A DNA stretch of 38,617 nucleotides from the IMG/VR virus record IMGVR_UViG_3300037961_001441, positions 1 through 38,617 of that record. One strand, 5' to 3'. The notes beneath the pieces are model-generated. The model worked only from the letters and a program-made list of their open reading frames with translations, ran no database searches and was not told the DNA's origin. Below are positions 2,810-6,740 of this stretch, one piece after another. The stretch is from a virus. Within the stretch, counting starts at the first letter, position 1; every line of letters starts with the position of its first letter. The position numbers and the translations under genes are program-made.

Positions 2810-3493
2810 TTAATGTTTAAAAAATCCGATTATTGTTTTTCTTTTGTTATGTGAGCAAAGTTTACAATCCAAACATTTTATATTATGGGTTTGTTCAGGA
2901 CATATTGTAATGTGTTTACCTTGTGGCGTTTTTATATCTGAGGGATTTGCTGACAATTTCTCAAATTGTGTTTTTGTAAATGGTAAGACAACAGTTGTCG
3001 GAATTTTGGTATCTGACAAAATGTCGGCTTGTTCGAGTGTATCTGCTGACAAGTTAATTGTGAAGCCTTTATTGTTTGCATATCTAATTAAATTAAGATT
3101 ATGTTCTGACAATTTTCTTTTCTTACCTGACAAAATTGTGTGGTGGTGTGTGTAACAAATAACCTTACCACCCCTATTTGCTTTTACAAGTTGCTTTAGT
3201 TTCTTAGCATCAATTTTGTTTTTCTTAACTACCAAATCACCGACTACATTGTGTCGCCATAAACCTTGTCTGTTATGTTTTCTAAAGTAATAAACTTGTT
3301 TTACAAATTCATCCCAGTTGTCAATATTGTCTTCACTGTATCTGTTCCAGTGTAGGCGAATGGGAAAGTTATCTCCATAACAACCATTCTTTTTGAGGCT
3401 ACAAGAAGTCGGACAAGTTTGTCTTGGACTGTAAGAAGTAGGCATTGCTCCCACCTTCTTTGATTGTGTATTGGTTACGAATTTGTAAGTCAT
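2810..3493 (-). CDS. Cysteine-rich GP88-like protein, 227 aa
   Basis: Near the N terminus (residues about 26-40) is TCPTSCSLKKNGCYG, a CP-x-x-C ... GCYG pattern like that of phage 'gene product 88' proteins. The C terminus carries a second cluster (CPEQ...CLDCKLC, about residues 199-216). The spacing suggests a bound metal or iron-sulphur cluster. The middle has alternating helices and strands (VICYTHHHT, TINLSADTLEQ, PTTVVLPF) consistent with a barrel-like fold. Biochemical role is unknown; a radical-chemistry or nucleic-acid role is speculation. A good promoter (3515-3542) and AGGAGA before the ATG indicate its own transcription start. The gene contains five CTGACAA motifs on its non-coding strand, read as Leu-Ser codons. 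Confidence 0.6.
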   Translation of the reverse strand: MTYKFVTNTQSKKVGAMPTSYSPRQTCPTSCSLKKNGCYGDNFPIRLHWNRYSEDNIDNWDEFVKQVYYFRKHNRQGLWRHNVVGDLVVKKNKIDAKKLKQLVKANRGGKVICYTHHHTILSGKKRKLSEHNLNLIRYANNKGFTINLSADTLEQADILSDTKIPTTVVLPFTKTQFEKLSANPSDIKTPQGKHITICPEQTHNIKCLDCKLCSHNKRKTIIGFFKH

Positions 3494-4128: not shown

Positions 4129-4257
4129 CTATTTTCTTTTATACCATTTTCTAGTTACTTCATCAAAGTAAATGTTTTCTAAATCTACCCTTTGAGGTCT
4201 ATGCGAATACCTTTTACCTTTCGATTTTTTCTTACCTTCGATAAGTCGCTTTGCCAT
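4129..4257 (-). CDS. Small basic protein, 42 aa
   Basis: Begins MAKRLIEGKKKSKGKR and ends WYKRK; about a third of residues are Lys or Arg. GGGAG lies about 8 bases before the ATG, which makes translation credible despite the small size. A compact, strongly basic protein could bind nucleic acid, but there is no recognised fold. It sits between the one-helix membrane peptide (4315-4431) and the promoter for the next gene. Confidence 0.6.
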   Translation of the reverse strand: MAKRLIEGKKKSKGKRYSHRPQRVDLENIYFDEVTRKWYKRK

Positions 4258-4314
4258 TGTTCACTCTCCCATTTCTCGTAGCTACGAAGCCACTGTTTTG
4301 TTTTTGTGTTTACT

Positions 4315-4431
4315 TTACCTTTTATCATTTTGTTCTGTCTTCAAGAATATGTAAATTACAAGTAGAGCTGTAAACAAAAGTATAAACGAACAACCCCAAC
4401 CAAACATTAAAGATACTGTTACTAAGTCCAT
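4315..4431 (-). CDS. One-helix membrane protein, 38 aa
   Basis: The peptide (start MDLVTVSLMFGWG) has one central hydrophobic segment of about 22 residues and a charged tail (KTEQNDKR), giving an N-out, C-in or reversed single-span protein. Its ATG shares a base with the stop of the previous gene (TAATG), a typical translational coupling, which supports it as a real gene. It could be a holin-like or host-membrane factor; no family is recognised. Confidence 0.6.
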   Translation of the reverse strand: MDLVTVSLMFGWGCSFILLFTALLVIYIFLKTEQNDKR

Positions 4432-4664
4432 TAGGGCAACCTCTTTACAAACTCTGCCTGCTCATCTGAGGCTACTCTCCGCCTTGACAATTCTTTTGCT
4501 ATCCTATCTAACAAAGTAATTATATCTTCTCTGATACTTGCAGTGCCACCGCCCCTTTGTAATCTAAGAAGGGCATGAAGTTCATGCTGTGCAAACTCAT
4601 ACTCTTCTGTAAGAGTTCCTAACCTAATTAGCTTTTCGTACTTGCTTAAATCTATGCTCATCAT
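4431..4664 (-). CDS. Hypothetical helical protein, 77 aa
   Basis: A charged, helix-rich small protein with Arg-Arg-Arg near the C terminus and Arg-Gly-Gly-Gly in the middle. Two adjacent ATG codons (4664 and 4661) follow GGGAGAG, and either could be used. It overlaps the end of the zinc-ribbon gene (to 4624) by 41 bases in another frame, and its stop overlaps the start of the membrane peptide. Function unknown. Confidence 0.65.
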   Translation of the reverse strand: MMSIDLSKYEKLIRLGTLTEEYEFAQHELHALLRLQRGGGTASIREDIITLLDRIAKELSRRRVASDEQAEFVKRLP

Positions 4665-4779
4665 ATCTCTCCCTTAAGTGTGGTGTCTTTTGTTCTATGT
4701 AACATTTAGCACACCACAATCTGTCTGTTCTATTATCTACAATATCTGCCCTGTCATCACAGTAATCACATTTTCTCAT
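4624..4779 (-). CDS. Small zinc-ribbon protein, 51 aa
   Basis: The protein begins MRKCDYCDDRA and has a second pair, CAKCY, at residues 23-26, so four cysteines in C-x2-C pairs about 16 residues apart can bind one zinc ion. A strong GGAGGA lies just before the ATG. The tail is basic. Such mini zinc-ribbons in phages often bind DNA, RNA or RNA polymerase, but the partner is unknown. A long hairpin (4799-4845) lies 20 bases upstream and would form in its leader RNA. Confidence 0.65.
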   Translation of the reverse strand: MRKCDYCDDRADIVDNRTDRLWCAKCYIEQKTPHLRERYDEHRFKQVRKAN

Positions 4780-4798
4780 CTATTCCTCCCTTAGGTTC

Positions 4799-4845
4799 GA
4801 CAACAGACAAGGGGAAAAATAATGATAAAAACCTTGTCTGCTGTC
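4799..4845. other. 14-bp inverted repeat / hairpin
   Basis: GACAACAGACAAGG (4799-4812) pairs with CCTTGTCTGCTGTC (4832-4845) with one G-T type mismatch around a 19-base A-rich loop. No T-tract follows on either strand, so it is not a standard terminator. It could be a leader hairpin for the zinc-ribbon gene, a processing site or a protein-binding site. Confidence 0.65.
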
Positions 4846-5421
4846 CGTCTTAGTTTTGGTATCCATCTGTCTGTCCTATTTCAACAGGGTCTACGGATTT
4901 TTAATTAACTAAGACAATCCTTTTTGCAAGTAGGAGGGGACTGATAACCTCTTGCTCACGAGATTGAATCGCCCCTACTACTCTATTGGCTTACGAAGGA
5001 CTGGTCTGCGTTTAAGTTTACCTTCGCTATTTAACTACGCCTTTAACTAGTATTACCTTTTCGTAGCACCAAATTCTTATAACTCCCAGTAGTAAGTAAA
5101 TTGCATATCAGGAGCGACCTGATGGAGTATCTTTTTAAACACTTACCCCTAGATTTCAGTGTCCTTACTAATGGGTATCCTAGCTAGGATAATTTTTTTT
5201 ATAGCTTGTAGTCTAGGCACGCAACTGTTTTAACTACCAACTTAGCCCACCCTTACACGAGTCTCAACCTCAGCCTCTTGTAGGTACTATAATTCTTTAT
5301 AACTTGGCATTGATAGGTAATCTTTTGGGGAATACTTTTAATGGGTTTTCTCCTTTGTTTAAGGGTTACACCACAGACTTTCACTGCCTTTCCCAACCAA
5401 GTCAATTTTTTTAACTCCTTA
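4846..5421. ncRNA. Candidate structured non-coding region
   Basis: This stretch has no credible gene on either strand although the flanks are densely coding. It holds several inverted repeats: 4930-4939 with 4972-4981 (10 bp, one mismatch) enclosing 4950-4954 with 4959-4963; 4994-4999 with 5021-5026; 5107-5112 with 5118-5123; and a 16-bp perfect palindrome at 5176-5191 followed by T's. Base composition is less AT-skewed than the other gaps. I could not match it to tmRNA, RNase P RNA, a tRNA or a group I intron core. Strand is uncertain: the T-tract fits a forward transcript ending near 5200, while the flanking operon reads in reverse. Confidence 0.4.
5176..5200 (+). terminator. Palindrome with T-tract, possible forward terminator
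   Basis: TATCCTAGCTAGGATA (5176-5191) is a perfect palindrome able to form a 6-bp stem with an AGCT loop, followed by A and eight T's (5193-5200). The stem is AT-rich, so strength is doubtful. There is no forward gene before it, which is why a forward non-coding transcript is considered. Confidence 0.45.
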
Positions 5422-5607
5422 CTAACTAAATTTAAAGTCTACATCATAATCACGAAAAGGATATTTTGATGATGTAATTTCTCTTCTCATATATTCACAA
5501 GCTGATTCCCAACTTGGTTCATCACAGACTTGTAAACTGATTTTCATAGTCATTGTTACTGACCACTCTTCACCTTCTTCCCATTCTCCTTCTTCATTTG
5601 TTTCCAT
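5422..5607 (-). CDS. Hypothetical acidic protein, 61 aa
   Basis: Begins METNEEGEWEEGEEW, a very acidic N terminus rich in Glu and Trp, followed by a short beta-like segment (VTMTMKISLQVC). No family is recognised. It lies 10 bases after the preceding gene in the reverse-strand operon and is the last gene before the 640-base gene-free stretch. Small acidic phage proteins can act as DNA mimics, but that is only a thought here. Confidence 0.6.
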   Translation of the reverse strand: METNEEGEWEEGEEWSVTMTMKISLQVCDEPSWESACEYMRREITSSKYPFRDYDVDFKFS

Positions 5608-6632: not shown

Positions 6633-6710
6633 TTGACTATAAGTAGATTAGTATTAGTATATTAAATACTCCCTTAATAATGTTATAATTTTTATGTAGA
6701 CTAAAGTCTA
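6633..6710 (+). promoter_or_regulatory. Forward early promoter region with palindromic operator
   Basis: Two candidate forward promoters lie here: TTGACT (6633-6638) with TAGTAT (16-base gap) or TATATT (19-base gap), and a clean TATAAT at 6684-6689 with only a poor -35. Ten bases after the TATAAT is the inverted repeat TAGACTAAAGTCTA (6697-6710), overlapping the expected start point, a classic place for a repressor to bind. Together with 6582-6610 this is a divergent control region. Confidence 0.55.
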
Positions 6711-6715
6711 TTTTA

Positions 6716-6740
6716 AGGGTGTTCGTTTTTATGTCAAGGA
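6716..6740 (+). repeat. Dispersed repeat, copy 2 (partner at 2784-2809)
   Basis: AGGGTGTTCGTTTT, then TAT, then GTCAAGGA. The last bases form part of the ribosome site of the 28-residue peptide that starts at 6748. Confidence 0.6.

Follow-up and report, generated by a model that had tools for sequence, protein, structure and literature searches.

A modular array of structured RNA domains in a gene-free gap of an HMO-2011-type phage, with domains shared between phage lineages

The described RNAs closest in character to the one reported here are GOLLD and ROOL, although the locus qualifies as neither. GOLLD is a large, elaborate phage RNA of unknown function with a variable 5' part and tRNAs sometimes inside or near it (PMC12286853), whereas ROOL is phage-borne, pseudoknotted and often located near tRNA islands (PMC12286853). 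Symmetric palindromic kissing loops are known from GOLLD and OLE (PMC12286853). The array described below is comparable to GOLLD in being a phage RNA of unknown function that has, in one relative (L087), a tRNA-like gene in one of its slots, and to ROOL in being phage-borne and pseudoknotted. However, it has no Rfam match to either family and lacks a universally conserved 3' domain; it is an optional set of domains, some arrays being only about 110 nt long, and a variable domain string in contrast to the one elaborate fold of ROOL. Two further systems share its tandem organisation. Phage tRNA arrays are also tandem small structured RNAs, and a tRNA-Trp-like gene fills the slot in L087; the domains of the array, however, are not tRNAs, with no ARAGORN prediction in the window and one among the 34 loci scanned. 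Type III toxin–antitoxin RNA repeats are likewise tandem pseudoknotted RNA units, whereas the units of the array differ from one another and no toxin gene was recognised nearby, although no specific search was made.

The window, meaning the whole stretch of DNA analysed (38,617 nucleotides), comes from a single virus record 39,128 bases long (IMG/VR IMGVR_UViG_3300037961_001441). The closest cultured matches of its DNA polymerase are HMO-2011-type phages, the best being Pelagibacter phage HTVC033P with 44.8% identity; the protein carries two CXXCXGXG motifs, at residues 134 and 159, and scores 20.1 bits against Pfam DnaJ_CXXCXGXG, under the cutoff of 32.7. Within a leftward run of very small genes of this HMO-2011-type phage lies the largest gene-free stretch of the window, 4780-5421 (642 bases, by a gene list that we chose from the ORF calls), flanked by minus-strand ORFs at 4624-4779 and 5422-5607. 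The ORF list contains no frame of at least 60 aa inside the gap. Its longest frame, 50 aa from a TTG start in domain A, was rejected as a gene on three grounds, all read by eye: an in-frame TAG after 9 codons in the relative L004, the absence of the start codon in other relatives and indels of 1-2 bases between relatives. A sequence-only reading had described the gap as gene-free, with a 14-bp hairpin at its edge, multiple inverted repeats and a perfect 16-bp palindrome followed by eight T's. The gap, the edge hairpin (4799-4845, with 14-nt arms at 4799-4812 and 4832-4845 that are 93% complementary) and the palindrome (5176-5191, TATCCTAGCTAGGATA, with T8 after it on the plus strand) all held, but for the multiple inverted repeats an inverted-repeat scan returned only one pair, the arms of the edge hairpin.

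On the minus strand, the RNA strand as argued below, the window contains the array A-X1-P-B-C-D-Y-T, from about 5408 to 4799. Comparison of relatives gives a general layout of A, an X slot, P+B, a slot pair E-F, the pair C-D, and T. The features, in the direction of the RNA strand, are:

6710-6737, minus strand: highest-ranking promoter-like site ahead of the leftward genes among which the array lies (identified by consensus alone, with 11 of 12 matches).
5422-5607, minus strand: upstream small ORF, 61 aa (ORF list; not beside the array in L006).
5415-5420, minus strand: Shine-Dalgarno-like AAGGAG directly 5' of domain A (sequence; same in relatives).
5299-5408, minus strand: domain A, with closing stem GACTTGG/CCAAGTT, hairpin GGCAG..CTGU and proposed pseudoknot UGGG/CCCA (10-sequence alignment A3).
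5192-5298, minus strand: domain X1 (alignment A1 and single-sequence fold; window and L002 only).
5176-5191, minus strand: palindromic hairpin P, loop AGCU (perfect 16-nt palindrome, 24/24 copies).
5085-5175, minus strand: domain B, a three-way junction with pseudoknot GACAC/GUGUU (22-sequence alignment A2).
4981-5076, minus strand: domain C, with stem S1 CTACG/CGTAG and its conserved loop, and stem S2 CGAAGG/CCTTCG (paired changes, 19 records).
4927-4984, minus strand: domain D, with long closing stem GTAGTAGGGG/CCCCTCCTAC (11 stem versions).
4847-4915, minus strand: Y, a hairpin closed by GTCTTAGTT/AACTAAGAC (sequence and single-sequence fold; window and L009 only).
4799-4845, minus strand: T, the 14-bp hairpin that ends the array, with no U run after it (inverted repeat).
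4624-4779, minus strand: downstream zinc-ribbon ORF, 51 aa (ORF list and neighbour search).

In relatives the X1 slot is empty or holds other domains (X2-X4), and hairpin T is also present in L003, L004, L006, L026, L065, L069 and L075. In many records, as at 5415-5420 in the window, the AAGGAG motif directly precedes the first domain with no conserved start codon following it; it is possibly a relic of insertion or a ribosome contact. In seven records (L062, L071, L073 and L088-L091), domain A is preceded by an extended hairpin, AGTGTGG..CCCCACAC, accompanied by T runs. In L087, the slot occupied elsewhere by C-D holds an ARAGORN tRNA-Trp(CCA) at 3320-3393, whose D and T arms look unusual.

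The relatives were gathered via the upstream 133-aa protein, which gave 5 loci, and then by patterns from conserved RNA pieces, which gave more. We found 34 related IMG/VR records, which together with the window makes 35 that have one domain or more. Loci L005, L008, L010, L011 and L012 were left out as lying on contigs already counted, and 55 loci among L013-L096 were dropped by eye from their context as chance matches to short patterns. The carrier records are mostly fragments and include near-duplicates (L039/L049, L092/L094 and window/L009); some arrays are cut by contig ends, so that absence of a domain is not always real. A scan of genome contigs gave 7 loci, none of which has the remainder of the domain. 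Of the 29 arrays of two or more domains, 27 follow the order A-B-F-C-D-T, the exceptions being T before F in L004 and a second F replacing D in L089; the apparent second 'D' anchors of L002 and L007 are spurious, the regex having matched inside a downstream gene. Domain content, on the other hand, varies from P-B only (L022, L050, L064) through P-B-T (L065) to almost everything (L067).

Single-sequence folding is too weak to decide whether the gap encodes an RNA, being only modestly better than in shuffles (z of -2.46 on the plus and -2.24 on the minus strand), and the case therefore rests on comparison. In P+B (22 distinct sequences), standard pairs fill 95.8% of the pair cells, and both partners have changed in 14 of 35 pairs; the covariation score is 0.255, compared with 0.115 for shuffles and no more than 0.103 with the partner slid. 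One pair of the B pseudoknot is A-U in 16 sequences, G-C in 5 and G-U in 1, and the joint GCAAUUUA is strongly conserved, being invariant in all 22. Hairpin P is a perfect palindrome in each of the 24 copies found, in four versions with 3 of 6 pairs changing on both sides, while its AGCU loop is the same throughout. In domain A (10 sequences), 98.6% of cells are paired, 6 of 21 pairs have changes on both sides, and the closing stem is even replaced whole, from ACTTGG/CCAAGT to ATGTAGG/CCTACAT; the pairs of its proposed pseudoknot never vary, and the pseudoknot remains unproven. The closing stem of domain D exists in 11 versions of 7-10 pairs with no more than one mismatch, and S1 and S2 of domain C have entirely different yet paired arms among 19 records. 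Support for domain F (11 sequences, 89.7% paired) is weaker: its covariation score exceeds that of every shuffle, but doubly changed pairs are no more numerous than in shuffles (257 of 500 reach the count), a small hairpin is poorly supported (paired in only 58% of cells) and the proposed pseudoknot is nearly invariant and likewise unproven. The F motif GGGAAAGCCATTAAATTG, seen in the L003 insert, the second copy in L004 and L089, is similar to AAAACCCATTAAAA of domain A, a likeness that suggests a common ancestor of the two domains. Although the alignments are of modest size (22, 10 and 11 sequences) and their members related by descent, covariation beyond shuffles and slid controls in P-B and A, weaker for F, shows that 4780-5421 encodes a structured RNA. 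The sequence-only reading had offered a candidate non-coding RNA and named as its own test covarying conserved structure as opposed to a small conserved gene; in related phages it passed, with conserved covarying structure present and no conserved small gene.

The strand follows from the wobble pairs. On the minus strand, G.U outnumbers A.C by 83 to 16 in the pair cells of the three alignments and by 45 to 2 in P-B when misaligned cells are left out, and we infer from this that the minus strand is the RNA strand, bearing in mind that some G.U pairs are constant and that cells are not independent. This strand-specific tolerance also points to RNA rather than DNA structure for the suggestion that the gap is an origin, for which there was no direct test. 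Reading the palindrome as a terminator on the plus strand was rejected: most relatives lack the T run and have AAAGAATTATCC or a like sequence ahead of the palindrome when read along the RNA strand, whereas the palindrome itself persists through paired changes.

A covariance model of P+B (R1) scores 125.4 bits in the window. Of the 35 carrier records, 28 reach at least 84 bits, as against none of the 55 chance loci used as controls, where the best score is 17 bits; the next-best scores are 28.4 bits within L026 and then at most 20.4. The L026 match (903-1007, E 0.00035) is weak, lies upstream of the true copy and is apparently in a coding region. There is one copy of P-B per record, extra low-scoring matches overlapping or adjoining the main copy on the other strand. 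Domain B was not found with R1 in the full genomes of HTVC033P, HTVC027P, HTVC023P and HMO-2011, so that these phage groups can do without the RNA.

No match at gathering score was obtained with Rfam 15 in the window or in 17 relatives, the GOLLD, ROOL and group I models included. Permissive Rfam scans of 4600-5600 and of L067 1100-2250 contained no GOLLD, ROOL or OLE, and neither these scans nor those of the window and the 17 relatives matched a group I intron, tmRNA, RNase P RNA or any riboswitch of Rfam 15. The earlier failure to recognise tmRNA, RNase P RNA or a group I intron thus held in the Rfam scans, and ARAGORN found no tmRNA in the window. Two permissive hits, Yfr17 (E 3) and L17DE (E 0.09), are at chance level and far below gathering scores, and a cobalamin-riboswitch-like look of domain A was dropped for lack of Rfam support. 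BLAST of the array of the window, L052 and L062 against cultured phages gave no match or chance scraps; Mammaliicoccus phage matches of L064 were set aside as lying within promoter-like sequence before a gene. HTVC033P (L097), a cultured phage of the same group as the window, has two gene-free blocks that fold into closed-stem modules (4218-4399 and 2130-2283) without similarity to any other phage record. No similarity was found that would make them cultured homologues of the array; they are possibly its tractable cousins. The open-access literature searched contained no description of the array RNA, most subscription papers and bioRxiv being outside its scope: passages of PMC2704228 do not describe it, 'intergenic' and 'non-coding' were not found in the HMO-2011-type genome paper PMC9038755, and a search for non-coding RNA of HMO-2011 phages matched one paper, on Red Sea brines. 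To our knowledge, the array RNA (P-B, A, F, C and D) is therefore previously undescribed and without an Rfam relative.

Near-identical domains occur in phages that are otherwise unrelated in their DNA. In nucleotide comparison, L064, L070, L087, L094 and L095 align to the window in the array alone (0 nt elsewhere), their B-containing pieces being 69-92% identical to it. Domains A and B of L039 and L049 are 91-95% identical to those of the window, with about 125 nt aligned elsewhere, and domain C of L067 is 98% identical as against 75% for other DNA. L002 gave no separate array piece in this comparison, its array match being part of one longer alignment. The carriers include at least two phage types: the HMO-2011 type of the window, whose DNA polymerase belongs to the same PHROG as those of L052 and L058, and L066, whose portal has its nearest match in Pelagibacter phage HTVC027P, closely followed by HTVC023P and two unclassified phages. 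Since array pieces are common to phages with little or no other shared DNA, we infer that the domains move between phage lineages.

The genes beside the array are not fixed. An automatic search sorted the upstream genes of 27 records into 11 families and the downstream genes of 26 records likewise into 11; the counts are approximate, as the downstream pick is wrong in at least L095 and the search passed over the zinc-ribbon gene in L006 and probably in L003. The relatives do not share one downstream gene family, as would be expected of a cis-regulatory leader. In the records read, the arrays are flanked by small same-strand genes; six records of one group have a preceding gene of one family, and in 9 records a promoter-like site immediately follows the array. 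Varied neighbours and these 9 arrays make a leader of the zinc-ribbon gene, or of any other single gene, unlikely. Among the three options offered by the sequence-only reading, the phage-borne large RNA fits, whereas the leader of the zinc-ribbon gene, found downstream in only 3 of 26 records, does not.

Conserved covarying structure, domains independently present or absent in mostly fixed order, and the lack of a fixed neighbour gene are shown. Based on these findings, we propose that the minus strand from 5408 to 4799 encodes a new modular, probably trans-acting phage RNA of independently folding domains, a reading that could still fall either way, as there are no expression data and no partner has been identified. 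In this hypothetical scenario, (i) a non-coding RNA of roughly 0.6 kb, with several tandem domains and pseudoknots, would be co-transcribed with the leftward block of small genes, as inferred from its position and one promoter-like site; (ii) the RNA would act in trans; (iii) each domain would be a platform of its own for binding a host or phage factor, be it a protein, a part of the ribosome or another RNA, an inference for which there are no binding data; and (iv) domain swapping would tune the phage's set, as happens with genes for tRNAs or counter-defence. Genes for host take-over and counter-defence typically come as exchangeable cassettes, and for this reason we favour capture, as decoy or scaffold, in the service of either as the most likely use, although the data name no target or defence system. 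It may also be, as no more than a suggestion, that palindrome P with its invariant AGCU loop dimerises the RNA, as kissing loops do in GOLLD and OLE.

The rival that survives best is a set of cis-acting UTR elements, in which the domains protect or process the 3' ends of upstream messages or regulate neighbouring genes. The arrays' position between same-strand small genes, the single upstream family in six records of one group and the 9 promoter-like sites right after the array all speak for it, whereas the 11 upstream and 11 downstream families, and joint conservation such as that of GCAAUUUA in 22 sequences, which exceeds the needs of a simple stem barrier, speak against it. A 3' UTR role remains possible, and against our trans-acting reading it must be said that the polycistronic and 3' UTR positions do not exclude a cis role on the upstream message. 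Less probable is a GOLLD- or ROOL-like large RNA that self-assembles from copies with palindromic hairpins as contacts. The perfect palindromy of P with its AGCU loop in 24/24 copies is only suggestive of homo-oligomers; palindromic kissing loops in GOLLD and OLE, the location of phage GOLLD and ROOL near tRNAs (PMC12286853) and the tRNA-like gene in L087 are further points in its favour. However, Rfam gives no match to GOLLD, ROOL or OLE, there is no universal core domain, arrays of P-B only (L022, L050, L064) are too small for such a cage, and any hairpin with Watson-Crick pairs only and a palindromic loop is a palindrome in any case. Self-cleaving or otherwise catalytic RNAs cutting the polycistronic transcript could account for compact pseudoknotted domains and invariant joint residues, but they match no Rfam ribozyme family and lack any evidence of cleavage, which leaves them very improbable. 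No more credible are mobile single-strand DNA cassettes (folded recombination sites or MITE-like elements) whose structure serves DNA mobility, for which domain gain, loss and exchange between unrelated phages and AATTAT at both edges of X1 can be cited, since the one-strand tolerance of G.U far above A.C (83 to 16), the pseudoknot, conserved joints and mostly fixed order, and the absence of a recognised recombinase beside the arrays (without systematic search) all count against them.

In summary, the covarying domains, traded between phage lineages related to those infecting dominant ocean bacteria, would amount to a new RNA class together with a new organisation, cassette-like RNA domains in mostly fixed order. 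The array offers a defined collection of small RNAs for synthesis, folding, bait experiments and deletion, and it shows that gene-free gaps of abundant marine phages hide RNA machinery overlooked by protein-based annotation. A bolder reading is possible, namely a combinatorial RNA system in which pseudoknotted domains are drawn from a pool shared among marine phages to form a trans-acting, perhaps self-dimerising scaffold, each domain capturing a different host factor such as a defence effector, the ribosome or an RNA-processing enzyme. If this were true, horizontal exchange of domains would match the RNA to the host, and the array would be an RNA counterpart of modular counter-defence islands.
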